Assembly (NCBI RefSeq): GCF_045679555.1 | Contig: NC_092091.1 | Coordinates: 91,530,190 to 91,594,189 of the forward strand | Reading direction: 5' to 3' | DNA: 64,000 nt | Source: Salvelinus alpinus | Lineage: Eukaryota; Chordata; Actinopteri; Salmoniformes; Salmonidae | In this document: positions 19,786 to 63,427 of the stretch, piece after piece | Layout of the letters: every line of letters begins with the position of its first letter | Position numbering within the stretch: the stretch's first letter is position 1 | Notes under the pieces: generated by a model | What the model saw: the letters and a program-made list of their open reading frames with translations, nothing else | Databases searched by the model: none | What the model was told of the DNA's origin: nothing | Position numbers and translations under genes: made by a program

Positions 19786-19789
19786 TGTG

Positions 19790-19861
19790 TTCCCTGACCG
19801 GGAATCGAACCCGGGCCGCGGCGGTGAGAGCGCCGAATCCTAACCACTAGACCACCAGGGA
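19790..19861 (-). tRNA. tRNA-Glu (anticodon CTC)
   Basis: On the - strand the gene begins TCCCTGGTGGTCTAGTGGTT and ends GGTTCGATTCCCGGTCAGGG-AA. It has 72 bases and no intron. Acceptor arm (TCCCTGG/TCAGGGA), D arm, anticodon arm (GGCG-CTCTCAC-CGCC) and T arm (CCGGG/CCCGG, loop TTCGATT) all pair. Box A (TGGTCTAGTGG) and box B (GGTTCGATTCC) are intact. The sequence appears identical to the vertebrate consensus for tRNA-Glu-CTC as I recall it. It lies alone, with a T11 terminator, between two minisatellite-rich regions. It is a likely functional gene and not a SINE head, because no SINE body follows. Confidence 0.96.
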
Positions 19862-34290: not shown

Positions 34291-34397
34291 GTGAAATATG
34301 CTGAGCAACAGTAAACTGCCTTGGACTTTCATCAACGTCATTTCTGAGAAGGAGCGGATGGAAATCTCCTGACGGCTATGAGGAGAGTGAAGTAAAT

Positions 34398-34411
34398 ATG
34401 GAGGAAGACAG
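34398..34411 (+). CDS. Possible first coding exon of the NLR gene
   Basis: ATGGAGGAAGACAG followed by GTAAAT encodes MEED plus two bases of the next codon (phase 2). The repeated exons downstream all begin with G in the complementary phase, giving MEEDR-LLGAASPAPS. The upstream in-frame TAA (34393-34395) fixes the start. The region 34,300-34,397 would be 5' UTR. The support is phase match, donor quality and position only; no promoter element is clear, and nearly 6 kb of intron would separate it from the first repeated exon. Confidence 0.35.
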
Positions 34412-34566
34412 GTAAATTACCCTGTCATTAGGTTTATCTGTATTTTATTGGTTTATTCATAATCTCAAAAGCAAATGTTGATGATATGTGTCCAATTCAA
34501 ATGCAACTACGGGCTGTTGTTAATAATAAATAATAAATATAAAAAGCGCGAGGTGTGACACAGCTG

Positions 34567-36040: not shown

Positions 36041-36170
36041 TCAAATTACATTTTATTTGTCACATGCACAGAATACAACAGGTGTAGAAACTGTTAAGAG
36101 ATAAGAGATAAGAAAAACGAATAATTAAAGAGCAGCAGTAAATAACAATAATGGGGCAAAATACAGGGTG
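36041..36170 (-). mobile_element. LINE/SINE 3' tail fragment, edge of 39-bp array
   Basis: TCAAATTACATTTTATTTGT then CACATGCACAGAATACAACA-GGTGTAG and AGCAGCAGTAAATAACAATA. This is the same family as 8690-8835. In ordinary copies of this element the next sequence is a short stretch with TATATACAGGGGGTACCGGT; here that stretch is amplified into the following minisatellite. Confidence 0.65.
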
Positions 36171-38525
36171 TTCTGGTACAGACTCAATGTGGAGGTTATA
36201 TACAGGGGGTACCGGTACAGAGTCAATGTGGAGGCTATATACAGGGGGTACGGGTACAGAGTCAATGTGGAGGCTATATACAGGGGGTATCGGTACAGAG
36301 TCAATGTGGAGGCTCTATACAGGGGTTACCGGTACAGAGTCAATGTGGAGGCTATATAGAGGGGGTACCGGTACAGAGTCAATGTGGAGGCTATATACAG
36401 GGGGTACCGGTACAGAGTCAATGTGGAGGCTATATACAGGGGGTACCGGTACAGAGTCAATGTGGAGGCTATATACAGGGGGTATCGGTACAGAGTCAAT
36501 GTGGAGGCTCTATACAGGGGTTACCGGTACAGAGTCAATGTGGAGGCTATATACAGGGGGTACCGGTACAGAGTCAATGTGGAGGCTATATACAGGGGGT
36601 ACCGGTACAGAGTCAATGTGGAGGCTATATACAGGGGGTACCGGTACAGAGTCAATGTGGAGGCTATATACAGGGGGTACCGGTACAGAGTCAATGTGGA
36701 GGCTATATACAGGGGGTACTGGTACAGAGTCAATGTGGAGGCTATATAGAGGGGGTACTGGTACAGAGTCAATGTGGAGGCTATATACAGGGGGTACCGG
36801 AACAGAGTCAATGTGGAGACTATATACAGGGTGTACTGGTACAGAGTCAATGAGGAGGCTATATACAGGGGGTACCGGTACAGAGTCAATGTGGAGGCTA
36901 TATACAGGGGGTACCGGTACAGAGTCAATGAGGAGGCTATATACAGGGGGTACCGGTACAGAGTCAATGTGGAGGCTATATACAGGGGGTACTGGTACAG
37001 AGTCAATGTTGAGGCTATATACAGGGGGTACTGGTACAGAGTCAATGTGCAGGCTATATACAGGGGTACCGGTACAGAGTCAGTGTGGAGGCTATATACA
37101 GGGGGTACTGGTACAGAGTCAATGTGGAGGCTATATACAGGGGGTACTGGTACAGAGTCAATGTGGAGGCTATATACAGGGGGTACTGGTACAGAGTCAA
37201 TGTGGAGGCTATATACAGGCAGTACCGGTACAGAGTCAATGTGGAGACTATATACAGGGGGTACCGGTACAGAGTCAATGTGGAGGATATATACAGGGGG
37301 GTACCGGTACAGAGTCAATGTGGAGGCTATATACAGGGGGGGTACAGAGTCAATGTGGAGGCTATATACAGGGGGTACTGGTACAGAGTCAATGTGGAGG
37401 CTATATACAGGCAGTACCGGTACAGAGTCAATGTGGAGACTATATACAGGGGGTACCGGTACAGAGTCAATGTGGAGGATATATACAGGGGGTACCGGTA
37501 CAGAGTCAATGTGGAGACTATATACAGGGCTACTGGTACAGAGTCAATGAGGAGGCTATATACAGGGGGTACCTGTACAGAGTCAATGTGGAGGCTACAT
37601 ACAGGGGGTACCGGTACAGAGTCAATGTGGAGGCTATATACAGGGGGTACCGGTACAGAGTCAATGTGGAGGCTATATACAGGGGGTACCGGTACAGAGT
37701 CAATGTGGAGGCTATATACAGGGGGTACCGGTACAGAGTCAATGTGGAGGCTATATACAGGGGGTACTGGTACAGAGTCAATGTGGAGGCTATATAGAGG
37801 GGGTACTGGTACAGAGTCAATGTGGAGGCTATATACAGGGGGTACCGGAACAGAGTCAATGTGGAGACTATATACAGGGGGTACTGGTACAGAGTCAATG
37901 TGGAGGATATACACAGGGGGGTACCGGTACAGAGTCAATGTGGAGGCTATATACAGGGGTACTGGTACAGAGTCAATGTGGAGGCTATATACAGGGGTAC
38001 TGGTACAGAGTCAATGAGGAGGCTATATACAGGGGGTACCGGTACAGAGTCAATGTGGAGGCTATATACAGGGTGTTACGGTACAGAGTCAATGTGGAGG
38101 CTATATACAGGGGGTATCGGTACAGAGTCAATGTGGAAGCTATGTACAGGGGGTACTGGTACAGAGTCAATGTGGAGGCTATATACAGGGGGTACCGGTA
38201 CAGAGTCAATGTGGAGGCTATATACAGGGGGTACCGGTACAGAGTCAATGTGGAGGCTATATACAGGGGGTACCGGTACAGAGTCAATGTGGAGGCTATA
38301 TACAGGGGGTACTGGTACAGAGTCAATGTGGAGGCTATATACAGGGTGTTACGGTACAGAGTCAATGTGGAGGCTATATACAGGGGGTACCGGTACAGAG
38401 TCTATGTGGAGGCTATATACAGGGGGTACCGGTACAGAGTCAATGTGGAGGCTATATACAGGGGGTACCGGTACAGAGTCAATGTGCAGGCTATATAGAG
38501 GGGGCACCGGTACAGAGTCAATGTG
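36150..38525. repeat. Minisatellite, 39-bp unit, about 60 copies
   Basis: Copies of atacagggggtaccggtaca then gagtcaatgtggaggctat. The unit is the internal segment of the salmonid LINE/SINE element that flanks it on the left. Because 39 is a multiple of 3, several frames on both strands stay open for hundreds of codons (YTGGTGTESMWRL and others). A block including CAGGCAGTACCGG is duplicated (37,216 and 37,410). The right end runs directly into the 32-bp array through shared AATGTGGA. Confidence 0.96.
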
Positions 38526-39409
38526 GACTGGAATAGGACTATATTACTAGTGATATGGACTGGAATAGGACTATATATTACTAGTGATGTGGACTGGAAT
38601 AGGACTATATTACTAGTGATATGGACTGGAATAGAACTATATTACTTGTGATGTGGACTGGAATAGGACTATATTACTAGTGATGTGGACTGGAATAGGA
38701 CTATATTACTAGTGATATGGACTGGATTAGGTCTATATTACTTGTGATGTGGACTGGAATAGGACTATATTACTAGTGATGTGGACTGGAATAGGACTAT
38801 ATTACTAGTGATATGGACTGGAATAGGACTATATTACTTGTGATATGGACTGGAATAGGACTATATTACTTGTGATGTGGACTGGAATAGGACTATATTA
38901 CTAGTGATATGGACTGGAATAGAACTATATTACTTGTGATGTGGACTGGAATAGGACTGTATTACTAGTGATGTGGACTGGAATAGGACTATATTACTAG
39001 TGATATGGACTGGAATAGAACTATATTACTAGTGATGTGGACTGGAATAGGACTATATTACTCGTGATGTGGACTGGAATAGGACTATATTACTAGTAAT
39101 GTGGACTGGAATAGGACTATATTACTAGTGATATGGACTGGAATAGGACTATATTACTAGTGATATGGACTGGAATAGGACTATATTACTAGTGATATGG
39201 ACTGGAATAGGATTGTACGACTAGTAATGTGGACTGGAATAGGACTATATTACTAGTGATATGGACTGGAATAGGACTATATATTACTAGTGATATGGAC
39301 TGGAATAGGACTATATTACTAGTGATATGGACTGGAATAGGACTATATTACTAGTGATGTGGACTGGAATAGGACTATATTACTAGTGATATGGACTGGA
39401 ATAGGCCTA
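38526..39409. repeat. 32-bp minisatellite, unit 1
   Basis: About 27 copies of ggactatattactagtgata then tggactggaata, starting directly from the 39-bp array. Confidence 0.95.
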
Positions 39410-40270
39410 TATCTCTAACTGTTATTGGTTTACAGACCTATCATATGTAACTGTTATTAGTAGGTCTACAGACCTATCATATGTAACTGTTATTAGTAGG
39501 TCTACAGACCTATCATATGTAACTGTTATTAGTAGGTCTACAGACCTATCATATCTAACTGTTATTAGTAGGTCTATAGACCTATCATATCTAACTGTTA
39601 TTAGTAGGTCTATAGACCTATCATATCTAACTGTTATTAGTAGGTCTACAGACCTATCATATCTAACTGTTATTAGTAGGTCTACAGACCTATCATATCT
39701 AACTGTTATTGGTGTGACTACAGACCTATCATATCTAACTGTTATTGGTTGGACTACAGATCTATCATATCTAACTGTTATTTGTTGGTCTACAGACCTA
39801 TCATATCTAACTGTTATTAGTAGGTCTACAGACCTATCATATCTAACTGTTAATAATTGGTCTACAGACCTATCATATCTAACTGTTATTAGTAGGTCTA
39901 CAGACCTATCATATCTAACTGTTATTAGTAGGTCTACAGACCTATCATATCTAACTGTTATTAGTAGGTCTACAGACCTATCATATCTAACTGTTATTGG
40001 TGTGACTACAGACCTATCATATCTAACTGTTATTGGTTGGACTACAGACCTATCATATCTAACTGTTATTGGTTGGTCTACAGACCTATCATATCTAACT
40101 GTTATTAGTAGGTCTACAGACCTATCATATCTAACTGTTATTAGTAGGTCTAAAGACCTATCATATCTAACTGTTATTAGTAGGTCTAAAGACCTATCAT
40201 ATCTAACTGTTATTGGTTGGTCTACAGACCTATCATATCTAACTGTTATTGGTTGGATTACAGACCTATG
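39410..40270. repeat. 36-bp minisatellite, unit 1
   Basis: About 24 copies of acctatcatatctaactgtt then attagtaggtctacag. The open frame DLSYLTVISRST is periodic; the true exon lies downstream in a different context. Confidence 0.95.
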
Positions 40271-40350
40271 TCCTACTGGTTTTACTGTGTAAAGTTATTA
40301 ACTGGAATGATTTTAATATTTACCTGAATACTATTCTCTGTGTCTGAAAG

Positions 40351-40446
40351 GCTTTTGGGAGCAGCATCTCCTGCTCCAAGCCAACTCTCCTTGAAAAGTG
40401 ACAACTCCATGGATCGACTGATCTCATTTACAAATGGTGATCTCAG
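40351..40446 (+). CDS. NLR N-terminal repeat exon, copy 1
   Basis: Exon of 96 bp, phase 2 at both ends, encoding (R)LLGAASPAPSQLSLKSD then NSMDRLISFTNGDL(R). It resembles the roughly 30-residue N-terminal repeats of fish NACHT-LRR (NLRC3-like) proteins, of the form SPVPSCVSMKSDQSM..PI.F..GD, each encoded by its own exon (family knowledge, recalled). The acceptor is ctctgtgtctgaaag, with a plausible branch site TTATTAAC at about 40,299. The donor is CAG|GTACAG. The symmetric phase means any number of copies keeps the frame. The NACHT and LRR exons would lie beyond the window. The same motif also occurs in some fish TRIM proteins, so the NLR assignment is probable, not proven. Confidence 0.62.
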
Positions 40447-40449
40447 GTA

Positions 40450-40592
40450 CAGTACCAGTCAAAAGTTTGGACACACCTACTCATTCAAGGGTTTTTCTTT
40501 ATTTTTACTAATTTCTACATTGTAGAATAATAGTGAAGATACAACCATAAAATAACACGTGGAATCATGTACCAAAAAATGTTAAACAACTA
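40450..40592. mobile_element. Truncated Tc1-like end after exon copy 1
   Basis: CAGTACCAGTCAAAAGTTTG then GACACACCTACTCATTCAAG is the terminal inverted repeat of a common salmonid Tc1-like transposon. It starts right after a TA (40448-40449) that belongs to the exon's donor GTA. It is cut off after GTTAAACAA, where the 32-bp array resumes. Confidence 0.85.
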
Positions 40593-42263
40593 GGCCTGTA
40601 TTACTAGTGATATGGACTGGATTAGGACTATATTACTAGTAATGTGGACTGGAATAGGACTATATTACTAGTGATGTGGACTGGAATAGGACTATATTAC
40701 TAGTGATGTGGACTGGAATAGGACTATATTACTAGTGATGTGGACTGGAATAGGACTATATTACTAGTGATATGGACTGGAATAGGACTATATGACTAGT
40801 GATGTGGATTGGAATAGGACTATATTACTAGTGATATGGACTGGAATAGGACTATATTACTAGTGATATGGACTGGAATAGGACTATATTACTAGTGATG
40901 TGGATTGGAATAGGACTATATTACTAGTGATGTGGATTGGAATAGGACTATATTACTAGTGATGTGGATTGGAATAGGACTATATTACTAGTGATATGGA
41001 CTGGAATAGGACTATATGACTAGTGATGTGGATTGGAATAGGACTATATTACTAGTGATATGGACTGGAATAGGACTATATTACTAGTGATATGGACTGG
41101 AATAGGACTATATTACTAGTGATGTGGATTGGAATAGGACTATATTACTAGTGATGTGGATTGGAATAGGACTATATTACTAGTGATGTGGATTGGAATA
41201 GGACTATATTACTAGTGATATGGACTGGAATAGGACTATATTACTAGTGATATGGACTGGAATAGGACTATATTACTAGTGATATGGATTGGAATAGGAC
41301 TATATTACTAGTGATATGGACTGGAATAGGACTATATTACTACTAATGTGGACTGGAATAGGACTATATTACTAGTGATATGGACTGGAATAGACCTATA
41401 TTACTAGTGATGTGGATTGGAATAGGACTATATTACTAGTGATATGGACTGGAATAGGACTATATGACTAGTGATGTGGATTGGAATAGGACTATATTAC
41501 TAGTGATATGGACTGGAATAGGACTATATTACTAGTGATATGGACTGGAATAGGACTATATTACTAGTGATGTGGATTGGAATAGGACTATATTACTAGT
41601 GATGTGGATTGGAATAGGACTATATTACTAGTGATGTGGATTGGAATAGGACTATATTACTAGTGATATGGACTGGAATAGGACTATATTACTTGTGATA
41701 TGGACTGGAATAGGACTATATTACTTGTGATGTGGACTGGAATAGGACTATATTACTAGTGATATGGACTGGAATAGAACTATATTACTTGTGATGTGGA
41801 CTGGAATAGGACTGTATTACTAGTGATGTGGACTGGAATAGGACTATATTACTAGTGATATGGACTGGAATAGAACTATATTACTAGTGATGTGGACTGG
41901 AATAGGACTATATTACTCGTGATGTGGACTGGAATAGGACTATATTACTAGTAATGTGGACTGGAATAGGACTATATTACTAGTGATATGGACTGGAATA
42001 GGACTATATTACTAGTGATATGGACTGGAATAGGACTATATTACTAGTGATATGGACTGGAATAGGACTATATTACTAGTAATGTGGACTGGAATAGGAC
42101 TATATTACTAGTGATATGGACTGGAATAGGACTATATATTACTAGTGATATGGACTGGAATAGGACTATATTACTAGTGGTATGGACTGGAATAGGACTA
42201 TATTACTAGTGATGTGGACTGGAATAGGACTATATTACTAGCGATATGGACTGGAATAGGCCT
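40593..42263. repeat. 32-bp minisatellite, unit 2
   Basis: About 52 copies, with GGACTGG and GGATTGG variants arranged in repeated blocks of about eight units. Confidence 0.95.
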
Positions 42264-43160
42264 ATATCTCTAACTGTTATTGGTTTACAGACCTATCATA
42301 TGTAACTGTTATTAGTAGGTCTACAGACCTATCATATGTAACTGTTATTAGTAGGTCTACAGACCTATCATATGTAACTGTTATTAGTAGGTCTACAGAC
42401 CTATCATATCTAACTGTTATTAGTAGGTCTATAGACCTATCATATCTAACTGTTATTAGTAGGTCTATAGACCTATCATATCTAACTGTTATTAGTAGGT
42501 CTACAGACCTATCATATCTAACTGTTATTAGTAGGTCTACAGACCTATCATATCTAACTGTTATTGGTGTGACTACAGACCTATCATATCTAACTGTTAT
42601 TGGTTGGACTACAGATCTATCATATCTAACTGTTATTTGTTGGTCTACAGACCTATCATATCTAACTGTTATTAGTAGGTCTACAGACCTATCATATCTA
42701 ACTGTTATTAGTAGGTCTACAGACCTATCATATCTAACTGTTAATAATTGGTCTACAGACCTATCATATCTAACTGTTATTAGTAGGTCTACAGACCTAT
42801 CATATCTAACTGTTATTAGTAGGTCTACAGACCTATCATATCTAACTGTTATTAGTAGGTCTACAGACCTATCATATCTAACTGTTATTGGTGTGACTAC
42901 AGACCTATCATATCTAACTGTTATTGGTTGGACTACAGACCTATCATATCTAACTGTTATTGGTTGGTCTACAGACCTATCATATCTAACTGTTATTAGT
43001 AGGTCTACAGACCTATCATATCTAACTGTTATTAGTAGGTCTAAAGACCTATCATATCTAACTGTTATTAGTAGGTCTAAAGACCTATCATATCTAACTG
43101 TTATTGGTTGGTCTACAGACCTATCATATCTAACTGTTATTGGTTGGATTACAGACCTAT
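42264..43160. repeat. 36-bp minisatellite, unit 2
   Basis: About 25 copies, one more than unit 1, otherwise the same order of variants. Confidence 0.95.
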
Positions 43161-43241
43161 GTCCTACTGGTTTTACTGTGTAAAGTTATTAACTGGAATG
43201 ATTTTAATATTTACCTGAATACTATTCTCTGTGTCTGAAAG

Positions 43242-43337
43242 GCTTTTGGGAGCAGCATCTCCTGCTCCAAGCCAACTCTCCTTGAAAAGTGACAACTCCA
43301 TGGATCGACTGATCTCATTTACAAATGGTGATCTCAG
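43242..43337 (+). CDS. NLR N-terminal repeat exon, copy 2
   Basis: Same sequence as copy 1 (KSDNSMDR form) with the same splice sites. It is open and phase 2-2. If spliced in series with copy 1 it adds a second 32-residue repeat. Confidence 0.6.
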
Positions 43338-43340
43338 GTA

Positions 43341-43483
43341 CAGTACCAGTCAAAAGTTTGGACACACCTACTCATTCAAGGGTTTTTCTTTATTTTTACT
43401 AATTTCTACATTGTAGAATAATAGTGAAGATACAACCATAAAATAACACGTGGAATCATGTACCAAAAAATGTTAAACAACTA
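43341..43483. mobile_element. Truncated Tc1-like end after exon copy 2
   Basis: Same 143-bp fragment, same junctions as at 40450, so it was copied with the unit and did not insert independently. Confidence 0.85.
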
Positions 43484-45154
43484 GGCCTGTATTACTAGTG
43501 ATATGGACTGGATTAGGACTATATTACTAGTAATGTGGACTGGAATAGGACTATATTACTAGTGATGTGGACTGGAATAGGACTATATTACTAGTGATGT
43601 GGACTGGAATAGGACTATATTACTAGTGATGTGGACTGGAATAGGACTATATTACTAGTGATATGGACTGGAATAGGACTATATGACTAGTGATGTGGAT
43701 TGGAATAGGACTATATTACTAGTGATATGGACTGGAATAGGACTATATTACTAGTGATATGGACTGGAATAGGACTATATTACTAGTGATGTGGATTGGA
43801 ATAGGACTATATTACTAGTGATGTGGATTGGAATAGGACTATATTACTAGTGATGTGGATTGGAATAGGACTATATTACTAGTGATATGGACTGGAATAG
43901 GACTATATGACTAGTGATGTGGATTGGAATAGGACTATATTACTAGTGATATGGACTGGAATAGGACTATATTACTAGTGATATGGACTGGAATAGGACT
44001 ATATTACTAGTGATGTGGATTGGAATAGGACTATATTACTAGTGATGTGGATTGGAATAGGACTATATTACTAGTGATGTGGATTGGAATAGGACTATAT
44101 TACTAGTGATATGGACTGGAATAGGACTATATTACTAGTGATATGGACTGGAATAGGACTATATTACTAGTGATATGGATTGGAATAGGACTATATTACT
44201 AGTGATATGGACTGGAATAGGACTATATTACTAGTAATGTGGACTGGAATAGGACTATATTACTAGTGATATGGACTGGAATAGACCTATATTACTAGTG
44301 ATGTGGATTGGAATAGGACTATATTACTAGTGATATGGACTGGAATAGGACTATATGACTAGTGATGTGGATTGGAATAGGACTATATTACTAGTGATAT
44401 GGACTGGAATAGGACTATATTACTAGTGATATGGACTGGAATAGGACTATATTACTAGTGATGTGGATTGGAATAGGACTATATTACTAGTGATGTGGAT
44501 TGGAATAGGACTATATTACTAGTGATGTGGATTGGAATAGGACTATATTACTAGTGATATGGACTGGAATAGGACTATATTACTTGTGATATGGACTGGA
44601 ATAGGACTATATTACTTGTGATGTGGACTGGAATAGGACTATATTACTAGTGATATGGACTGGAATAGAACTATATTACTTGTGATGTGGACTGGAATAG
44701 GACTGTATTACTAGTGATGTGGACTGGAATGGGACTATATTACTAGTGATATGGACTGGAATAGGTCTATATTACTCTTGATATGTACTGGAATAGGACT
44801 ATATTACTCGTGATGTGGACTGGAATAGGACTATATTACTAGTAATGTGGACTGGAATAGGACTATATTACTAGTGATATGGACTGGAATAGGACTATAT
44901 TACTAGTGATATGGACTGGAATAGGACTATATTACTAGTGATATGGACTGGAATAGGACTATATTACTAGTAATGTGGACTGGAATAGGACTATATTACT
45001 AGTGATATGGACTGGAATAGGACTATATATTACTAGTGATATGGACTGGAATAGGACTATATTACTAGTGGTATGGACTGGAATAGGACTATATTACTAG
45101 TGATGTGGACTGGAATAGGACTATATTACTAGCGATATGGACTGGAATAGGCCT
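43484..45154. repeat. 32-bp minisatellite, unit 3
   Basis: Same length as unit 2 (1671 bp). It differs by a few substitutions, for example ACTCTTGATATGTACTGG near 44,771. Confidence 0.95.
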
Positions 45155-46051
45155 ATATCTCTAACTGTTATTGGTTTACAGACCTATCATATGTAACTGT
45201 TATTAGTAGGTCTACAGACCTATCATATGTAACTGTTATTAGTAGGTCTACAGACCTATCATATGTAACTGTTATTAGTAGGTCTACAGACCTATCATAT
45301 CTAACTGTTATTAGTAGGTCTATAGACCTATCATATCTAACTGTTATTAGTAGGTCTATAGACCTATCATATCTAACTGTTATTAGTAGGTCTACAGACC
45401 TATCATATCTAACTGTTATTAGTAGGTCTACAGACCTATCATATCTAACTGTTATTGGTGTGACTACAGACCTATCATATCTAACTGTTATTGGTTGGAC
45501 TACAGATCTATCATATCTAACTGTTATTTGTTGGTCTACAGACCTATCATATCTAACTGTTATTAGTAGGTCTACAGACCTATCATATCTAACTGTTATT
45601 AGTAGGTCTACAGACCTATCATATCTAACTGTTAATAATTGGTCTACAGACCTATCATATCTAACTGTTATTAGTAGGTCTACAGACCTATCATATCTAA
45701 CTGTTATTAGTAGGTCTACAGACCTATCATATCTAACTGTTATTAGTAGGTCTACAGACCTATCATATCTAACTGTTATTGGTGTGACTACAGACCTATC
45801 ATATCTAACTGTTATTGGTTGGACTACAGACCTATCATATCTAACTGTTATTGGTTGGTCTACAGACCTATCATATCTAACTGTTATTAGTAGGTCTACA
45901 GACCTATCATATCTAACTGTTATTAGTAGGTCTAAAGACCTATCATATCTAACTGTTATTAGTAGGTCTAAAGACCTATCATATCTAACTGTTATTGGTT
46001 GGTCTACAGACCTATCATATCTAACTGTTATTGGTTGGATTACAGACCTAT
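45155..46051. repeat. 36-bp minisatellite, unit 3
   Basis: About 25 copies, with the same variant order as unit 2. Confidence 0.95.
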
Positions 46052-46132
46052 GTCCTACTGGTTTTACTGTGTAAAGTTATTAACTGGAATGATTTTAATA
46101 TTTACCTGAATACTATTCTCTGTGTCTGAAAG

Positions 46133-46228
46133 GCTTTTGGGAGCAGCATCTCCTGCTCCAAGCCAACTCTCCTTGAAAAGTGACCACTCCATGGATCGAC
46201 TGATCTCATTTACAAATGGTGATCTCAG
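46133..46228 (+). CDS. NLR N-terminal repeat exon, copy 3
   Basis: As copy 1 except KSDHSMDR (AAC to CAC). Splice sites and phase are unchanged. The Asn-to-His change marks the lineage of copies 3-5. Confidence 0.6.
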
Positions 46229-46231
46229 GTA

Positions 46232-46374
46232 CAGTACCAGTCAAAAGTTTGGACACACCTACTCATTCAAGGGTTTTTCTTTATTTTTACTAATTTCTAC
46301 ATTGTAGAATAATAGTGAAGATACAACCATAAAATAACACGTGGAATCATGTACCAAAAAATGTTAAACAACTA
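46232..46374. mobile_element. Truncated Tc1-like end after exon copy 3
   Basis: Same fragment and junctions as in units 1 and 2. Confidence 0.85.
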
Positions 46375-48365
46375 GGCCTGTATTACTAGTGATATGGACT
46401 GGATTAGGACTATATTACTAGTAATGTGGACTGGAATAGGACTATATTACTAGTGATGTGGACTGGAATAGGACTATATTACTAGTGATGTGGACTGGAA
46501 TAGGACTATATTACTAGTGATGTGGACTGGAATAGGACTATATTACTAGTGATATGGACTGGAATAGGACTATATGACTAGTGATGTGGATTGGAATAGG
46601 ACTATATTACTAGTGATATGGACTGGAATAGGACTATATTACTAGTGATATGGACTGGAATAGGACTATATTACTAGTGATGTGGATTGGAATAGGACTA
46701 TATTACTAGTGATGTGGATTGGAATAGGACTATATTACTAGTGATGTGGATTGGAATAGGACTATATTACTAGTGATATGGACTGGAATAGGACTATATG
46801 ACTAGTGATGTGGATTGGAATAGGACTATATTACTAGTGATATGGACTGGAATAGGACTATATTACTAGTGATATGGACTGGAATAGGACTATATTACTA
46901 GTGATGTGGATTGGAATAGGACTATATTACTAGTGATGTGGATTGGAATAGGACTATATTACTAGTGATGTGGATTGGAATAGGACTATATTACTAGTGA
47001 TATGGACTGGAATAGGACTATATTACTAGTGATATGGACTGGAATAGGACTATATTACTAGTGATATGGATTGGAATAGGACTATATTACTAGTGATATG
47101 GACTGGAATAGGACTATATTACTAGTAATGTGGACTGGAATAGGACTATATTACTAGTGATATGGACTGGAATAGACCTATATTACTAGTGATGTGGATT
47201 GGAATAGGACTATATTACTAGTGATATGGACTGGAATAGGACTATATGACTAGTGATGTGGATTGGAATAGGACTATATTACTAGTGATATGGACTGGAA
47301 TAGGACTATATTACTAGTGATATGGACTGGAATAGGACTATATTACTAGTGATGTGGATTGGAATAGGACTATATTACTAGTGATGTGGATTGGAATAGG
47401 ACTATATTACTAGTGATGTGGATTGGAATAGGACTATATTACTAGTGATATGGACTGGAATAGGACTATATTACTAGTGATATGGACTGGAATAGGACTA
47501 TATTACTAGTGATATGGATTGGAATAGGACTATATTACTAGTGATATGGACTGGAATAGGACTATATTACTAGTGATATGGATTGGAATAGGACTATATT
47601 ACTAGTGATATGGATTGGAATAGGACTATATTACTAGTGATATGGATTGGAATAGGACTATATTACTAGTGATATGGACTGGAATAGGACTATATTACTA
47701 GTGATGTGGATTGGAATAGGACTATATTACTAGTGATGTGGATTGGAATAGGACTATATTACTAGTGATGTGGATTGGAATAGGACTATATTACTAGTGA
47801 TATGGACTGGAATAGGACTATATTACTAGTGATATGGACTGGAATAGGACTATATTACTAGTGATATGGGTTGGAATAGGACAATATGACTAGTGATGTG
47901 GATTGGAATAGGACTATATTACTAGTGATGTGGATTGGAATAGGACTATATTACTAGTGATGTGGATTGGAATAGGACTATATTACTAGTGATGTGGATT
48001 GGAATAGGACTATATTACTAGTGATGTGGATTGGAATAGGACTATATTACTAGTGATATGGACTGGAATAGGACTATATTACTAGTGATATGGACTGGAA
48101 TAGGACTATATTACTAGTGATGTGGATTGGAATAGGACTATATTACTAGTGATATGGACTGGAATAGGACTATATTACTAGTAATGTGGACTGGAATAGG
48201 ACTATATTACTAGTGATATGGACTGGAATAGGACTATATATTACTAGTGATATGGACTGGAATAGGACTATATTACTAGTGGTATGGACTGGAATAGGAC
48301 TATATTACTAGTGATGTGGACTGGAATAGGACTATATTACTAGTGATATGGACTGGAATAGGCCT
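46375..48365. repeat. 32-bp minisatellite, unit 4
   Basis: 1991 bp, ten 32-bp copies longer than in units 2 and 3. The extra copies are rich in the GGATTGG form. Confidence 0.95.
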
Positions 48366-49262
48366 ATATCTCTAACTGTTATTGGTTTACAGACCTATCA
48401 TATGTAACTGTTATTAGTAGGTCTACAGACCTATCATATGTAACTGTTATTAGTAGGTCTACAGACCTATCATATGTAACTGTTATTAGTAGGTCTACAG
48501 ACCTATCATATCTAACTGTTATTAGTAGGTCTATAGACCTATCATATCTAACTGTTATTAGTAGGTCTATAGACCTATCATATCTAACTGTTATTAGTAG
48601 GTCTACAGACCTATCATATCTAACTGTTATTAGTAGGTCTACAGACCTATCATATCTAACTGTTATTGGTGTGACTACAGACCTATCATATCTAACTGTT
48701 ATTGGTTGGACTACAGATCTATCATATCTAACTGTTATTTGTTGGTCTACAGACCTATCATATCTAACTGTTATTAGTAGGTCTACAGACCTATCATATC
48801 TAACTGTTATTAGTAGGTCTACAGACCTATCATATCTAACTGTTAATAATTGGTCTACAGACCTATCATATCTAACTGTTATTAGTAGGTCTACAGACCT
48901 ATCATATCTAACTGTTATTAGTAGGTCTACAGACCTATCATATCTAACTGTTATTAGTAGGTCTACAGACCTATCATATCTAACTGTTATTGGTGTGACT
49001 ACAGACCTATCATATCTAACTGTTATTGGTTGGACTACAGACCTATCATATCTAACTGTTATTGGTTGGTCTACAGACCTATCATATCTAACTGTTATTA
49101 GTAGGTCTACAGACCTATCATATCTAACTGTTATTAGTAGGTCTAAAGACCTATCATATCTAACTGTTATTAGTAGGTCTAAAGACCTATCATATCTAAC
49201 TGTTATTGGTTGGTCTACAGACCTATCATATCTAACTGTTATTGGTTGGATTACAGACCTAT
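48366..49262. repeat. 36-bp minisatellite, unit 4
   Basis: About 25 copies, same order as units 2 and 3. Confidence 0.95.
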
Positions 49263-49343
49263 GTCCTACTGGTTTTACTGTGTAAAGTTATTAACTGGAA
49301 TGATTTTAATATTTACCTGAATACTATTCTCTGTGTCTGAAAG

Positions 49344-49439
49344 GCTTTTGGGAGCAGCATCTCCTGCTCCAAGCCAACTCTCCTTGAAAAGTGACCACTC
49401 CATGGATCGACTGATCTCATTTACAAATGGTGATCTCAG
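49344..49439 (+). CDS. NLR N-terminal repeat exon, copy 4
   Basis: Identical by eye to copy 3 (KSDHSMDR form), with intact splice sites and phase 2-2. Confidence 0.6.
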
Positions 49440-49442
49440 GTA

Positions 49443-49585
49443 CAGTACCAGTCAAAAGTTTGGACACACCTACTCATTCAAGGGTTTTTCTTTATTTTTA
49501 CTAATTTCTACATTGTAGAATAATAGTGAAGATACAACCATAAAATAACACGTGGAATCATGTACCAAAAAATGTTAAACAACTA
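49443..49585. mobile_element. Truncated Tc1-like end after exon copy 4
   Basis: Same fragment and junctions as the other units. Confidence 0.85.
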
Positions 49586-51576
49586 GGCCTGTATTACTAG
49601 TGATATGGACTGGATTAGGACTATATTACTAGTAATGTGGACTGGAATAGGACTATATTACTAGTGATGTGGACTGGAATAGGACTATATTACTAGTGAT
49701 GTGGACTGGAATAGGACTATATTACTAGTGATGTGGACTGGAATAGGACTATATTACTAGTGATATGGACTGGAATAGGACTATATGACTAGTGATGTGG
49801 ATTGGAATAGGACTATATTACTAGTGATATGGACTGGAATAGGACTATATTACTAGTGATATGGACTGGAATAGGACTATATTACTAGTGATGTGGATTG
49901 GAATAGGACTATATTACTAGTGATGTGGATTGGAATAGGACTATATTACTAGTGATGTGGATTGGAATAGGACTATATTACTAGTGATATGGACTGGAAT
50001 AGGACTATATGACTAGTGATGTGGATTGGAATAGGACTATATTACTAGTGATATGGACTGGAATAGGACTATATTACTAGTGATATGGACTGGAATAGGA
50101 CTATATTACTAGTGATGTGGATTGGAATAGGACTATATTACTAGTGATGTGGATTGGAATAGGACTATATTACTAGTGATGTGGATTGGAATAGGACTAT
50201 ATTACTAGTGATATGGACTGGAATAGGACTATATTACTAGTGATATGGACTGGAATAGGACTATATTACTAGTGATATGGATTGGAATAGGACTATATTA
50301 CTAGTGATATGGACTGGAATAGGACTATATTACTAGTAATGTGGACTGGAATAGGACTATATTACTAGTGATATGGACTGGAATAGACCTATATTACTAG
50401 TGATGTGGATTGGAATAGGACTATATTACTAGTGATATGGACTGGAATAGGACTATATGACTAGTGATGTGGATTGGAATAGGACTATATTACTAGTGAT
50501 ATGGACTGGAATAGGACTATATTACTAGTGATATGGACTGGAATAGGACTATATTACTAGTGATGTGGATTGGAATAGGACTATATTACTAGTGATGTGG
50601 ATTGGAATAGGACTATATTACTAGTGATGTGGATTGGAATAGGACTATATTACTAGTGATATGGACTGGAATAGGACTATATTACTAGTGATATGGACTG
50701 GAATAGGACTATATTACTAGTGATATGGATTGGAATAGGACTATATTACTAGTGATATGGACTGGAATAGGACTATATTACTAGTGATATGGATTGGAAT
50801 AGGACTATATTACTAGTGATATGGATTGGAATAGGACTATATTACTAGTGATATGGATTGGAATAGGACTATATTACTAGTGATATGGACTGGAATAGGA
50901 CTATATTACTAGTGATGTGGATTGGAATAGGACTATATTACTAGTGATGTGGATTGGAATAGGACTATATTACTAGTGATGTGGATTGGAATAGGACTAT
51001 ATTACTAGTGATATGGACTGGAATAGGACTATATTACTAGTGATATGGACTGGAATAGGACTATATTACTAGTGATATGGGTTGGAATAGGACTATATGA
51101 CTAGTGATGTGGATTGGAATAGGACTATATTACTAGTGATGTGGATTGGAATAGGACTATATTACTAGTGATGTGGATTGGAATAGGACTATATTACTAG
51201 TGATGTGGATTGGAATAGGACTATATTACTAGTGATGTGGATTGGAATAGGACTATATTACTAGTGATATGGACTGGAATAGGACTATATTACTAGTGAT
51301 ATGGACTGGAATAGGACTATATTACTAGTGATGTGGATTGGAATAGGACTATATTACTAGTGATATGGACTGGAATAGGACTATATTACTAGTAATGTGG
51401 ACTGGAATAGGACTATATTACTAGTGATATGGACTGGAATAGGACTATATATTACTAGTGATATGGACTGGAATAGGACTATATTACTAGTGGTATGGAC
51501 TGGAATAGGACTATATTACTAGTGATGTGGACTGGAATAGGACTATATTACTAGTGATATGGACTGGAATAGGCCT
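49586..51576. repeat. 32-bp minisatellite, unit 5
   Basis: 1991 bp, near-identical to the array of unit 4. Confidence 0.95.
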
Positions 51577-52473
51577 ATATCTCTAACTGTTATTGGTTTA
51601 CAGACCTATCATATGTAACTGTTATTAGTAGGTCTACAGACCTATCATATGTAACTGTTATTAGTAGGTCTACAGACCTATCATATGTAACTGTTATTAG
51701 TAGGTCTACAGACCTATCATATCTAACTGTTATTAGTAGGTCTATAGACCTATCATATCTAACTGTTATTAGTAGGTCTATAGACCTATCATATCTAACT
51801 GTTATTAGTAGGTCTACAGACCTATCATATCTAACTGTTATTAGTAGGTCTACAGACCTATCATATCTAACTGTTATTGGTGTGACTACAGACCTATCAT
51901 ATCTAACTGTTATTGGTTGGACTACAGATCTATCATATCTAACTGTTATTTGTTGGTCTACAGACCTATCATATCTAACTGTTATTAGTAGGTCTACAGA
52001 CCTATCATATCTAACTGTTATTAGTAGGTCTACAGACCTATCATATCTAACTGTTATTAATTGGTCTACAGACCTATCATATCTAACTGTTATTAGTAGG
52101 TCTACAGACCTATCATATCTAACTGTTATTAGTAGGTCTACAGACCTATCATATCTAACTGTTATTAGTAGGTCTACAGACCTATCATATCTAACTGTTA
52201 TTGGTGTGACTACAGACCTATCATATCTAACTGTTATTGGTTGGACTACAGACCTATCATATCTAACTGTTATTGGTTGGTCTACAGACCTATCATATCT
52301 AACTGTTATTAGTAGGTCTACAGACCTATCATATCTAACTGTTATTAGTAGGTCTAAAGACCTATCATATCTAACTGTTATTAGTAGGTCTAAAGACCTA
52401 TCATATCTAACTGTTATTGGTTGGTCTACAGACCTATCATATCTAACTGTTATTGGTTGGATTACAGACCTAT
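51577..52473. repeat. 36-bp minisatellite, unit 5
   Basis: About 25 copies. It has GTTATTAATTGG at about 52,055 where the other units have GTTAATAATTGG. Confidence 0.95.
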
Positions 52474-52554
52474 GTCCTACTGGTTTTACTGTGTAAAGTT
52501 ATTAACTGGAATGATTTTAATATTTACCTGAATACTATTCTCTGTGTCTGAAAG

Positions 52555-52650
52555 GCTTTTGGGAGCAGCATCTCCTGCTCCAAGCCAACTCTCCTTGAAA
52601 AGTGACCACTCCATGGATCGACTGATCTCATTTACAAATGGTGATCTCAG
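52555..52650 (+). CDS. NLR N-terminal repeat exon, copy 5
   Basis: Same as copies 3 and 4 (KSDHSMDR form), the last copy in the window. The next coding exon must lie beyond 64,000, because only repeats and insertions follow. Confidence 0.6.
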
Positions 52651-52653
52651 GTA

Positions 52654-52796
52654 CAGTACCAGTCAAAAGTTTGGACACACCTACTCATTCAAGGGTTTTT
52701 CTTTATTTTTACTAATTTCTACATTGTAGAATAATAGTGAAGATACAACCATAAAATAACACGTGGAATCATGTACCAAAAAATGTTAAACAACTA
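52654..52796. mobile_element. Truncated Tc1-like end after exon copy 5
   Basis: Same fragment and junctions as the other units. Confidence 0.85.
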
Positions 52797-55700
52797 GGCC
52801 TGTATTACTAGTGATATGGACTGGATTAGGACTATATTACTAGTAATGTGGACTGGAATAGGACTATATTACTAGTGATGTGGACTGGAATAGGACTATA
52901 TTACTAGTGATGTGGACTGGAATAGGACTATATTACTAGTGATGTGGACTGGAATAGGACTATATTACTAGTGATATGGACTGGAATAGGACTATATGAC
53001 TAGTGATGTGGATTGGAATAGGACTATATTACTAGTGATATGGACTGGAATAGGACTATATTACTAGTGATATGGACTGGAATAGGACTATATTACTAGT
53101 GATGTGGATTGGAATAGGACTATATTACTAGTGATGTGGATTGGAATAGGACTATATTACTAGTGATGTGGATTGGAATAGGACTATATTACTAGTGATA
53201 TGGACTGGAATAGGACTATATTACTAGTGATATGGACTGGAATAGGACTATATGACTAGTGATGTGGATTGGAATAGGACTATATTACTAGTGATATGGA
53301 CTGGAATAGGACTATATTACTAGTGATATGGACTGGAATAGGACTATATTACTAGTGATGTGGATTGGAATAGGACTATATTACTAGTGATGTGGATTGG
53401 AATAGGACTATATTACTAGTGATGTGGATTGGAATAGGACTATATTACTAGTGATATGGACTGGAATAGGACTATATTACTAGTGATATGGACTGGAATA
53501 GGACTATATTACTAGTGATATGGATTGGAATAGGACTATATTACTAGTGATATGGACTGGAATAGGACTATATTACTAGTAATGTGGACTGGAATAGGAC
53601 TATATTACTAGTGATATGGACTGGAATAGACCTATATTACTAGTGATGTGGATTGGAATAGGACTATATTACTAGTGATATGGACTGGAATAGGACTATA
53701 TGACTAGTGATGTGGATTGGAATAGGACTATATTACTAGTGATATGGACTGGAATAGGACTATATTACTAGTGATATGGACTGGAATAGGACTATATTAC
53801 TAGTGATGTGGATTGGAATAGGACTATATTACTAGTGATGTGGATTGGAATAGGACTATATTACTAGTGATGTGGATTGGAATAGGACTATATTACTAGT
53901 GATATGGACTGGAATAGGACTATATTACTAGTGATATGGACTGGAATAGGACTATATTACTAGTGATATGGATTGGAATAGGACTATATTACTAGTGATA
54001 TGGACTGGAATAGGACTATATTACTAGTGATATGGATTGGAATAGGACTATATTACTAGTGATATGGATTGGAATAGGACTATATTACTAGTGATATGGA
54101 TTGGAATAGGACTATATTACTAGTGATGTGGATTGGAATAGGACTATATTACTAGTGATGTGGATTGGAATAGGACTATATTACTAGTGATGTGGATTGG
54201 AATAGGACTATATTACTAGTGATATGGACTGGAATAGGACTATATTACTAGTGATATGGACTGGAATAGGACTATATTACTAGTGATATGGATTGGAATA
54301 GGACTATATGACTAGTGATGTGGATTGGAATAGGACTATATTACTAGTGATGTGGATTGGAATAGGACTATATTACTAGTGATGTGGATTGGAATAGGAC
54401 TATATTACTAGTGATGTGGATTGGAATAGGACTATATTACTAGTGATGTGGATTGGAATAGGACTATATTACTAGTGATATGGACTGGAATAGGACTATA
54501 TTACTAGTGATATGGACTGGAATAGGACTATATTACTAGTGATGTGGATTGGAATAGGACTATATTACTAGTGATATGGACTGGAATAGGACTATATTAC
54601 TAGTGATGTGGATTGGAATAGGACTATATTACTAGTGATGTGGATTGGAATAGGACTATATTACTAGTGATATGGACTGGAATAGGACTATATTACTAGT
54701 GATATGGACTGGAATAGGACTATATTACTAGTGATATGGACTGGAATAGGACTATATTACTAGTGATGTGGATTGGAATAGGACTATATTACTAGTGATA
54801 TGGACTGGAATAGGACTATATTACTAGTGATGTGGACTGGAATAGGACTATATTACTAGTGATATGGACTGGAATAGGACTATATTACTAGTGATATGGA
54901 CTGGAATAGGACTATATTACTAGTGATATGGACTGGAATAGGACTATATTACTAGTGATGTGGACTGGAATAGGACTATATTACTAGTGATGTGGATTGG
55001 AATAGGACTATATTACTAGTGATATGGACTGGAATAGGACTATATTACTAGTGATATGGACTGGAATAGGACTATATTACTAGTGATATGGACTGGAATA
55101 GGACTATATTACTAGTGATATGGACTGGAATAGGACTATATTACTAGTGATATGGACTGGAATAGGACTATATTACTAGTGATATGGACTGGAATAGGAC
55201 TATATTACTAGTGATGTGGATTGGAATAGGACTATATTACTAGTGATATGGACTGGAATAGGACTATATTACTAGTGATGTGGACTGGAATAGGACTATA
55301 TTACTAGTGATATGGACTGGAATAGGACTATATTACTAGTGATATGGACTGGAATAGGACTATATTACTAGTGATGTGGATTGGAATAGGACTATATTAC
55401 TAGTGATGTGGACTGGAATAGGACTATATTACTAGTGATATGGACTGGAATAGGACTATATTACTAGTGATATGGACTGGAATAGGACTATATTACTAGT
55501 GATGTGGATTGGAATAGGACTATATTACTAGTATTGTGGATTGGAATAGGACTATATTACTAGTGATGTGGATTGGAATAGGACTATATTACTAGTGATA
55601 TGGACTGGAATAGGACTATATTACTAGTGATATGGACTGGAATAGGACTATATTACTAGTGATATGGACTGGAATAGGACTATATTACTAGTGATGTGGA

Positions 55701-58690
55701 TTGGAATAGGACTATATTACTAGTGATGTGGATTGGAATAGGACTATATTACTAGTGATATGGACTGGAATAGGACTATATTACTAGTGATATGGACTGG
55801 AATAGGACTATATTACTAGTGATATGGATTGGAATAGGACTATATTACTAGTGATGTGGATTGGAATAGGACTATATTACTAGTGATATGGACTGGAATA
55901 GGACTATATTACTAGTGATGTGGACTGGAATAGGACTATATTACTAGTGATATGGACTGGAATAGGACTATATTACTAGTGATATGGACTGGAATAGGAC
56001 TATATTACTAGTGATGTGGATTGGAATAGGACTATATTACTAGTGATGTGGATTGGAATAGGACTATATTACTAGTGATATGGACTGGAATAGGACTATA
56101 TTACTAGTGATATGGACTGGAATAGGACTATATTACTAGTGATATGGACTGGAATAGGACTATATTACTAGTGATGTGGATTGGAATAGGACTATATTAC
56201 TAGTGATATGGACTGGAATAGGACTATATTACTAGTGATGTGGACTGGAATAGGACTATATTACTAGTGATATGGACTGGAATAGGACTATATTACTAGT
56301 GATATGGACTGGAATAGGACTATATTACTAGTGATATGGACTGGAATAGGACTATATTACTAGTGATGTGGATTGGAATAGGACTATATTACTAGTGATG
56401 TGGATTGGAATAGGACTATATTACTAGTGATATGGACTGGAATAGGACTATATTACTAGTGATATGGACTGGAATAGGACTATATTACTAGTGATATGGA
56501 CTGGAATAGGACTATATTACTAGTGATGTGGATTGGAATAGGACTATATTACTAGTGATGTGGATTGGAATAGGACTATATTACTAGTGATATGGACTGG
56601 AATAGGACTATATTACTAGTGATATGGACTGGAATAGGACTATATTACTAGTGATATGGATTGGAATAGGACTATATTACTAGTGATATGGATTGGAATA
56701 GGACTATATTACTAGTGATATGGACTGGAATAGGACTATATTACTAGTGATATGGACTGGAATAGGACTATATTACTAGTGATGTGGATTGGAATAGGAC
56801 TATATTACTAGTGATGTGGATTGGAATAGGACTATATTACTAGTGATATGGACTGGAATAGGACTATATTACTAGTGATATGGACTGGAATAGGACTATA
56901 TTACTAGTGATGTGGATTGGAATAGGACTATATTACTAGTGATGTGGATTGGAATAGGACTATATTACTAGTGATATGGACTGGAATAGGACTATATTAC
57001 TAGTGATATGGACTGGAATAGGACTATATTACTAGTGATGTGGATTGGAATAGGACTATATTACTAGTGATATGGATTGGAATAGGACTATATTACTAGT
57101 GATATGGACTGGAATAGGACTATATTACTAGTGATATGGATTGGAATAGGACTATATTACTAGTGATATGGATTGGAATAGGACTATATTACTAGTGATA
57201 TGGATTGGAATAGGACTATATTACTAGTGATATGGACTGGAATAGGACTATATTACTAGTGATATGGATTGGAATATGACTATATTACTAGTGATATGGA
57301 CTGGAATAGGACTATATTACTAGTGATGTGGATTGGAATAGGACTATATTACTAGTGATATGGATTGGAATAGGACTATATTACTAGTGATATGGACTGG
57401 AATAGGACTATATTACTAGTGATATGGATTGGAATAGGACTATATTACTAGTGATATGGATTGGAATAGGACTATATTACTAGTGATATGGATTGGAATA
57501 GGACTATATTACTAGTGATATGGACTGGAATAGGACTATATTACTAGTGATGTGGATTGGAATAGGACTATATTACTAGTGATGTGGATTGGAATAGGAC
57601 TATATTACTAGTGATGTGGATTGGAATAGGACTATATTACTAGTGATGTGGATTGGAATAGGACTATATTACTAGTGATGTGGATTGGAATAGGACTATA
57701 TTACTAGTGATGTGGATTGGAATAGGACTATATTACTAGTGATGTGGATTGGAATAGGACTATATTACTAGTGATGTGGATTGGAATAGGACTATATTAC
57801 TAGTGATGTGGATTGGAATAGGACTATATTACTAGTGATATGGACTGGAATAGGACTATATTACTAGTAATGTGGACTGGAATAGGACTATATTACTAGT
57901 GATGTGGATTGGAATAGGACTATATTACTAGTGATATGGATTGGAATAGGACTATATTACTAGTGATATGGACTGGAATAGGACTATATTACTAGTGATA
58001 TGGATTGGAATAGGACTATATTACTAGTGATATGGACTGGAATAGGACTATATTACTAGTGATATGGACTGGAATAGGACTATATTACTAGTGATGTGGA
58101 CTGGAATAGGACTATATTACTAGTGATGTGGACTGGAATAGGACTATATTACTAGTGATATGGACTGGAATAGGACTATATTACTAGTGATATGGACTGG
58201 AATAGGACTATATTACTAGTGATATGGACTGGAATAGGACTATATTACTAGTGATGTGGACTGGAATAGGACTATATTACTAGTGATGTGGACTGGAATA
58301 GGACTATATTACTAGTGATATGGACTGGAATAGGACTATATTACTAGTGATGTGGACTGGAATAGGCCTTTATTACTATTGATATGGACTGGAATAGGAC
58401 TATATTACTAGTGATATGGACTGGAATAGGACTATATTACTAGTGATGTGGACTGGAATAGGCCTTTATTACTATTGATATGGACTGGAATAGGACTATA
58501 TTACTAGTGATATGGACTGGAATAGGACTATATTACTAGTGATATGGACTGGAATAGACCTATATTACTAGTGATGTTGACTGGAATAGGACTGTATATT
58601 ACTAGTGATGTGGACTGGAATAGAACTATATTACTAGTGATATGGACTGGAATAGGACTATATTACTAGTGATGTGGACTGGAATAGAAC
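52797..58690. repeat. 32-bp minisatellite, expanded sixth array (left part)
   Basis: About 184 copies of the 32-bp unit. The array continues after a LINE insertion (62,217-63,024) and after a second insertion (63,390-63,427). No 36-bp array or exon follows it in the window. Edge units beyond 62,280 are more variable (extra AT, GGTATGG, GATTTGG), while the centre is nearly uniform. Confidence 0.96.
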
Positions 58691-58704
58691 TAGTAATATA
58701 GTCC
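58691..58704. other. Inverted filler at the LINE 5' junction
   Basis: TAGTAATATAGTCC is the exact reverse complement of GGACTATATTACTA from the surrounding 32-bp repeat. It sits between the array (ending GGAATAGAAC) and the LINE start. The array resumes at the LINE 3' end with TATATTACTAGTG, the expected continuation of GAAC. The insertion thus has a short inverted target-derived filler instead of an ordinary target duplication. Confidence 0.75.
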
Positions 58705-58729
58705 TTTTGACTTCCGGCGCCGAAAAGAG

Positions 58730-61675: not shown

Positions 61676-61753
61676 CATTTAGCGGCCGCTGCCAACATAC
61701 TGACTCAACTCCAGCCACTTTAAAAATGGGAATTGATGGAAATTATGTAAAAA

Positions 61754-62010
61754 TGTACCACTAGCCACTTTAAGCAATGCCACTTAATACAATGTTTACA
61801 TCCCCTACATTACCCATCTCATATGTATATATACTGTACTCTATATCATCTACTGCATCTTGCCATCTTTATGCAATACATGTACCACTAGCCACTTTAA
61901 ACTATGCCACTTTATGTTTACATACCCTACAGTACTCATCTCATATGTATATACCGTACTCTATACCATCTACTGCATCTGCCATGCCGTTCTGTACCAC
62001 CACTCATTCA
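61754..62010. repeat. 127-bp tandem duplication in the LINE 3' UTR
   Basis: TGTACCACTAGCCACTTTAA-like sequence occurs at 61754 and 61881. Both copies continue through CATCTCATATGTATATA to CATCTACTGCATCT. It belongs to the element, not to the host array. Confidence 0.85.
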
Positions 62011-62216
62011 TATATCTTTATGTACATATTCTTTATCCCTTTACACTTGTGTGTGTGTGTAAGGTAGTAGTGTGGAATTGTTAGGTTAGATTACTGTTGG
62101 TTATTACTGCATTGTCGGAACTAGAAGCACAGGCATTTCGCTACACTCGCATTAACATCTGCTAACCATGTGTATGTGACTAATAAAATTTGATTTGATT
62201 TGATTTGATTTGATTT

Positions 62217-63024
62217 TATATTACTAGTGATATGGACTGGAATAGGACTATATTACTAGTGATGTGGACTGGAATAGGACTATATATTACTAGTGATATG
62301 GACTGGAATAGACCTATATTACTAGTGATATGGACTGGAATAGAACTATATTACTAGTGATATGGACTGGAATAGGACTATATTACTAGTGATATGGACT
62401 GGAATAGGACTATATTACTAGTGATATGGACTGGAATAGGACTATATTACTAGTGATATGGACTGGAATAGGACTATATTACTAGTGATATGGACTGGAA
62501 TAGGACTATATTACTAGTGATGTGGACTGGAATAGACCTATATTACTAGTGATGTGGACTGGAATAGGACTATATTACTAGTGATATGGACTGGAATAGG
62601 ACTATATATTACTAGTGATATGGACTGGAATAGGACTATATATTACTAGTGATATGGACTGGAATAGGACTATATATTACTAGTGATATGGACTGGAATA
62701 GGACTATATATTACTAGTGATATGGACTGGAATAGGACTATATTACTAGTGATATGGACTGGAATAGGACTATATTACTAGTGATATGGACTGGAATAGA
62801 CCTATAATACTAGTGATTTGGACTGGAATAGACCTATATTACTAGTGATGTAGACTGGAATAGGACTGTATTACTAGTGATGTTGACTGGAGTAGGACTA
62901 TATTACTAGTGATATGGGCTGTAATAGGACTATATTACTAGTGATATGGACTGGAATAGGACTATAGTACTAGTGGTATGGACTGGAATAGGACTATAGT
63001 ACTAGTGGTATGGACTGGAATAGG
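62217..63024. repeat. 32-bp minisatellite, right part of sixth array
   Basis: About 25 more units after the LINE, including several 34-bp units with ACTATATATTACTAG and degenerate units near the end. Confidence 0.95.
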
Positions 63025-63389
63025 TGTCACGGCATTTATCGGCAGAAGAAGAGGAATTTCAGACCAAAATGCAGCGTGGTACGTGTTCATCTTTATTAGC
63101 TTGTGAACACAGAATAACAAAAAAAAGAATAGCCGAAACAGTTCTGCAAGGTGCAACCAACACTAAACAGAAAATAACCACCCACAACTAACAGTGGGAA
63201 AACAAGCTACCTAAGTATGGTTCTCAATCAGAGAAAACGAAAGACAGCTGTCCCTGATTAAGAACCATACCCGGCCAAAACCTAGAATTACAAAACCTAA
63301 ACATACAAACATAGAATGCCCACCCACATCACACCCTGACCAAACAAAAAATAGAAACATACAAAGCAATCTACGGTCAGGGCGTGACA
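63025..63389 (-). mobile_element. Solo-LTR-like element
   Basis: A 365-bp insertion with ends TGTCACG and CGTGACA (5'-TG...CA-3'), flanked on both sides by ATAGG from the host repeat (63020-63024 and 63390-63394). That is a 5-bp target duplication, typical of LTR elements. On the - strand an AATAAA lies about 60 bp from the end. No internal coding part is present, so it fits a solo LTR fossil, fairly young because its target duplication is perfect. A non-LTR short element with similar ends cannot be excluded. Confidence 0.6.
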
Positions 63390-63427
63390 ATAGGACTATG
63401 TTACTAGTGATAAGGACTGGAATAGCT

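Follow-up and report, generated by a model that had tools for sequence, protein, structure and literature searches.

The window analysed here is a 64,000-nucleotide stretch of the Salvelinus alpinus genome (contig NC_092091.1, positions 91,530,190 to 91,594,189) which carries five copies of a short exon embedded in a long array of minisatellites. The peptide encoded by the exon resembles the N-terminal repeats of fish NLR proteins. With a probability of roughly two in three, the locus is the 5' part of a fish NLR/LRR innate-immune receptor gene in which one N-terminal repeat exon has recently been multiplied within a tandem unit of 2.9-3.2 kb.

Five copies of one exon in a minisatellite array

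A 50-bp probe taken from the exon and allowed up to three mismatches matches the whole window at exactly five places, all of them on the plus strand, whereas 100 shuffles gave a mean of 0.00 matches. Copy 1, which encodes LLGAASPAPSQLSLKSDNSMDRLISFTNGDL and is recognised by homology as well as by the probe, lies at 40351-40446 and is followed by copy 2 (43242-43337), copy 3 (46133-46228), copy 4 (49344-49439) and copy 5 (52555-52650), with spacings of 2891, 2891, 3211 and 3211 bp between successive copies. The exon is 96 bp long and of phase 2-2, starting one base before a codon and ending two bases into another, and its frame is open in all five copies, with neither a stop codon nor a frameshift. 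Within a 590-bp stretch around the exon all ten pairs of copies differ by zero or one base, and it is always the same exon base, which gives AAC (Asn) in copies 1 and 2 and CAC (His) in copies 3 to 5. His is probably the older state, since the homologous proteins P0001 and P0003 described below have His at this residue.

Each unit of the array combines two minisatellites, of 32 bp and 36 bp, with a core of roughly 320 bp in which the exon lies. The first of the units is only partial, starting at 38524 inside its 32-mer array (38524-39412 according to TRF), which adjoins a 39-bp minisatellite array at 36161-38527; its 36-mer array (39406-40269) has 24.1 copies as opposed to 25.1 in the other four. 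Complete unit 1 (40591-43481, 2891 bp) runs from the 32-mer array through the 36-mer array and exon copy 2 to a transposon-like piece, and is followed by unit 2 (43482-46372, 2891 bp), unit 3 (46373-49583, 3211 bp) and unit 4 (49584-52794, 3211 bp). Downstream of unit 4 a further 32-mer array extends from 52795 to 58692, in which the probe detects no additional exon. Tandem repeats with a period of at least 10 account for 98.1% of positions 36001-58692. The original prediction of five 96-bp exon copies, each with an open phase 2-2 frame and carried by tandem 2.9-3.2 kb units made almost wholly of minisatellite, is thus borne out by the probe matches, the reading frames and the composition of the spacers. 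Tandem repeats of the same minimum period, belonging to more than 12 different minisatellites, make up 62.8% of the window as a whole, and from this content one might guess that the window is possibly subtelomeric.

The units fall into two adjacent pairs of equal length. An ungapped comparison shows 9 differences in 2891 bases between units 1 and 2, and 2 in 3211 between units 3 and 4. Between the two length types, the 32-mer part shows three insertions (160, 128 and 32 bp, each a whole number of 32-mers) and 16-18 substitutions. The latter figures come from affine-gap alignments of the unit pairs 1-3, 2-3 and 2-4 with gap costs chosen by the analyst. A MAFFT alignment that gave 26-71 mismatches among the four complete units was set aside because the ungapped and affine-gap comparisons required fewer. 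Across the 1330 bp that take in the 36-mer array, the core and the exon, any two of copies 2 to 5 are separated by 1-3 differences; copy 1, whose 36-mer array is shorter by 36 bp, was excluded for that reason. Near-identical neighbours combined with length changes of whole repeats at two levels fit the pattern left by unequal exchange, as was originally proposed, and are also compatible with replication slippage or another form of tandem duplication. The pairing of the units suggests that the copy number has changed recently. The exon and the transposon-like piece at its donor sit between two minisatellites, and a misaligned exchange between homologous minisatellite tracts could duplicate or delete whole units, while the same kind of exchange could add or remove 32-bp and 36-bp repeats inside them.

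The encoded repeat and the probable receptor gene

The peptide LLGAASPAPSQLSLKSDNSMDRLISFTNGDL is identical at 25 of 31 residues (81%) to the N-terminus of P0003, an LRR protein of Oncorhynchus clarkii lewisi (E 1.3e-11 with the joined exon peptide as query), and on its own at 24 of 30 residues to P0001 of Coregonus suidteri (E 5.1e-12 with the joined query). A further match is P0004, an NLRC3-like protein of Clarias gariepinus (E 2.1e-8), which has three such repeats, identical at up to 16 of 27 residues (59%), in addition to FISNA, NACHT, winged helix and HD2 domains. The fourth match, P0002, is an unnamed protein of 126 residues (E 0.21). No Pfam family scores above its cut-off for the repeat or for P0001, the best hit of the joined exon peptide being an RFC1-like lid domain at 22.3 bits compared to a cut-off of 34.9, and no solved structure matches a two-copy peptide query at E 10.

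In zebrafish NLR groups 2-4 the N-terminal extensions consist of several repeats of about 30 residues, and each N-terminal peptide is encoded by a single exon (Howe et al., PMC4852459). The peptide encoded in the window has both the length and the shared motif of these repeats. Every repeat is isolated, flanked by an acceptor-like and a donor-like site and separated from the next one by 2.8-3.1 kb, and its ends agree in phase with P0003. In P0003 the homologous stretch is preceded by R, as a split codon AG|G would give in the window, and followed by S, as AG|C or AG|T would give, which fits phase 2 at either end. Judged by its homologues, length and motif, the multiplied exon is a repeat exon of the fish NLR N-terminal type. 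The original prediction had likened the peptide to the N-terminal repeats of fish NLRC3-like proteins, which it held to lie on repeated exons, and had proposed a search against salmonid NLR proteins; the likeness holds for the catfish P0004 (16/27) and for the salmonid P0003 (25/31), the salmonid P0001 was also found, and single-exon peptides are described in zebrafish (PMC4852459).

The assignment to an NLRC3-like gene stands for the type of repeat, as seen in P0004, and not for the class of gene. P0003 carries the exon peptide once, between MENGSGESEENMNEDR and a different second repeat, SMKSDSSMDRHIKF, followed by a long part in which LRR matches, and no NACHT match, are found. Residues 308-816 of P0003 share 93% identity, across 509 residues, with the C-terminal region of P0046, a CARD-NACHT protein from Oncorhynchus masou masou; a further relative, P0107, bears the name NLRC5-like. 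The exon-bearing protein has LRR matches only, though its LRR region resembles that of CARD-NACHT rather than FISNA-NACHT proteins, and the gene in the window is incomplete. P0003 itself could be a whole protein of composite structure, or else a gene model in which neighbours have been fused, and on present homology the gene in the window would best be called a fish NLR/LRR receptor in the broad sense. In P0005, P0006, P0009 and further salmonid proteins related to P0003, each protein contains several copies of a block of about 145 residues (P0003 78-221), a second module of the receptor family that seems to multiply.

A probable first coding exon, missed by the original prediction, lies upstream of the array at 34398-34411 on the plus strand. 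It encodes ATGGAGGAAGACAG (MEED followed by AG of a split codon) and ends in phase 2 at the donor CAG|GTAAAT. In a tblastn search, residues 3-16 of P0003 match 34371-34412 (plus strand) with 9 of 14 identities, and the match ends at this phase-2 donor. Among 8800 GT sites on both strands the candidate ranks first for likeness to the N-terminus of P0003, with a score of 37 compared to 20 for the next, and its donor score of 5.19 is in the top 0.3% of GT sites on the plus strand. The P0003-like reading frame begins at 34371 and P0003's own start codon is not kept; the first in-frame ATG, at 34398, aligns with Met 12 of P0003 and has a good context with A at -3 and G at +4. The predicted protein would start MEED-R-LLGAASPAPS..., with R coded across the junction, and the 39-bp minisatellite array would presumably lie in intron 1. 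Two patterns resembling an interferon-stimulated response element were searched for in the 1 kb upstream of the ATG and neither was found; a pattern resembling a gamma-activated site, TTCNNNGAA, occurs twice upstream of it, at 34287 and 34342.

Splice signals and competing explanations

The splice sites of the repeated exon were scored with matrices of vertebrate frequencies and ranked against the AG or GT sites on the plus strand of the window. They had been predicted to be intact. The acceptor is fair, in the top 4.6% of 4206 AG sites, and the donor CAG|GTACAG is weak (score 0.83, top 6.8% of GT sites) next to that of the candidate first exon. The cause may lie in the sequence that follows CAGG, TA-CAGTACCAGTCAAAAGTTTGGACACACC, which resembles a TA target and the end of a fish Tc1-like transposon. 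After copy 1 this TA and transposon-like piece spans 40448-40590; donor bases +2 to +6 fall inside it and its first part follows all five exon copies. No match to it was found in papers searched by sequence, in viral contigs or in prokaryote genomes, which are poor places to look. If the Tc1-like identity is right, the element would have inserted at the donor before the units multiplied, and would have weakened the donor without destroying it. Read-through at the donor would lengthen the reading frame by 26 codons up to a stop. With a length of 96 bp and phase 2-2, and with a candidate first exon that likewise ends in phase 2, the exon may be present in any number, or any copy may be skipped, and the frame to the exons expected beyond the window is kept. 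Full use and full skipping of the copies would both be compatible with the DNA as it stands.

Several observations weigh against an intact receptor gene that makes use of its multiplied exon. The candidate first exon has an E value of 9.9 by itself in tblastn, over 14 codons, and the ranking of GT sites in its favour was devised after that match had been seen. The donor of the repeated exon is weak in every copy. Over the 11.3 kb from copy 5 to the end of the window, neither a motif scan nor the best rows of tblastn searches with P0001-P0004 revealed a receptor exon, so that an intact gene is not supported by the window. The homologue set comprises 123 proteins from three protein searches, the third contributing the best 120 of 382 matches; among these matches listed, two proteins carry this type of exon, once each and none twice, and in no protein is the multiplied exon seen to be used. 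Limits of length range, word sharing and listing apply to this search, and the multi-copy negative is accordingly weak evidence. Among the same matches, six of 123 have a 31-residue window scoring at least 30 against the exon peptide, and in two of the six (scores 38 and 31 compared to 153 for the peptide itself) this segment is remote from the N-terminus, at residues 601 and 623; a simpler scan finds the repeat motifs in four of the 123.

The weak donor is common to all five copies and skipping is equally frame-neutral, which makes skipping a real rival to use. The exon could be a neutral passenger, mostly skipped because of its weakened, transposon-made donor, in units that multiplied without consequence through minisatellite instability alone. 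This is a serious contender, though short of even odds. The difference between 0.83 and 5.19 in donor score speaks for it, as does the lack of a relative with several copies of the exon among the matches listed, and tandem repeats cover 62.8% of the window whether or not they contain an exon. Against it, the acceptor is fair, the donor agrees with the consensus in its CAG|GTA part, and the frame and the key motif have been kept in comparison with homologues of other genera, which is not proof of use. It is unlikely that the locus is dead, the left-over 5' end of a receptor gene that repeats and transposons have severed and that lacks an intact gene downstream. The 11.3 kb that follow copy 5 are indeed minisatellite, a long interspersed nuclear element (LINE) and other repeats, and the start codon of P0003 is not kept, the first in-frame ATG aligning with its Met 12. 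However, the candidate first exon has a strong donor and an ATG in a favourable context, the exon copies are open, and long introns are usual in such genes; zebrafish NLR exons may spread over tens of kilobases (PMC11192531). That the assembler expanded or collapsed near-identical units is very unlikely. Units that differ at 2 of 3211 bases belong to arrays that are hard to assemble, but the window contains no N, and private differences between units, two length classes and a variant exon base make more than one real copy very likely.

A recently multiplied N-terminal repeat exon at the 5' end of an NLR/LRR receptor gene is thus the preferred interpretation. Its copies would be transcribed and spliced, their number altered by exchange, and individuals would be expected to differ in copy number. 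A bolder proposal, that the array is a hypervariable coding variable number tandem repeat (VNTR) in a vertebrate innate-immune receptor, in which minisatellite-driven unequal exchange gains and loses entire frame-neutral N-terminal modules, individuals and haplotypes express differing numbers of repeats and the strength of the transposon-made donor sets the number used, is rather doubtful.

Comparison with known systems and other features of the window

The N-terminal repeats of the fish NLR-C or NLR-B30.2 proteins have the length of about 30 residues seen in the window; their peptides are encoded by single exons and their number varies (PMC4852459, PMC11192531), as is predicted for the window, and the motif in the window is that of the Clarias protein P0004, SPAPS..S.KSD.SMD...F..GD. 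Unlike these, the copies in the window are nearly indistinguishable from one another and reside in minisatellite units, an arrangement not described in the portions available of the same two papers, and no FISNA-NACHT exon is seen in the window. The salmonid CARD-NACHT-LRR proteins (P0046 and the NLRC5-like P0107) share their LRR part with P0003, the nearest full-length relative, but begin with a CARD and have no such peptide repeat, whereas P0003 has no NACHT match.

The closest mechanism in kind is the coding VNTR of human LPA, kringle IV type 2 (KIV-2), in which near-identical tandem units of kilobase size contain coding exons and introns and the copy number sets protein length by modules. 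Its units are 5.6 kb long with two short exons and number from 1 to about 40 per allele (PMC11462820). The window likewise has near-identical tandem units that each contain a frame-neutral coding exon, coding by homology and phase, with one 96-bp exon per unit; it differs in that the spacers are almost wholly minisatellite and that it is known from one haplotype, while the variation of LPA is documented. Change in fish NLR genes has been ascribed to exon shuffling, gene conversion and gene duplication (PMC4852459, PMC11192531, PMC2268669). No description of a minisatellite-borne array of near-identical NLR N-terminal exons was found in the literature surveyed, including the accessible text of PMC6988351, which does not prove its absence from print. 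The locus appears to catch one N-terminal exon in the course of multiplying within a gene and suggests that minisatellite units are the vehicle. It allows one to ask if minisatellite instability feeds protein variation in immune receptors, as LPA KIV-2 does for lipoprotein(a).

Read on the reverse strand, the five 36-mer arrays (39406-40269 and four others) have an open frame of some 300 codons that encodes YDRSVDLLITVR; long open frames are expected here because the period is divisible by three. A faint likeness links YDRSVDLLITVR to the SIRSIDRPITF repeat of P0001 (E 0.002 when composition is not corrected for), probably by chance. A derivation of the 36-bp minisatellite from the exon, as a degenerate copy in inverted orientation, was put aside, as it was conceived post hoc and 7 of 500 shuffles equalled the match at the DNA level.

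The LINE at 58697-62216 is inserted in the 32-mer array and contains an open frame of 992 codons (58697-61675) with a reverse transcriptase match and an endonuclease match just under the cut-off; its 3' end was placed by reading the sequence. A short inverted piece of 32-mer is found at its 5' end (about 58687-58704). Within the last 32-mer repeats, 63024-63390 is bounded by inverted ends of the GTCACG / CGTGAC type and looks like a short DNA transposon. Elsewhere in the window, a tRNA-Glu (CTC) is encoded on the minus strand at 19789-19861.

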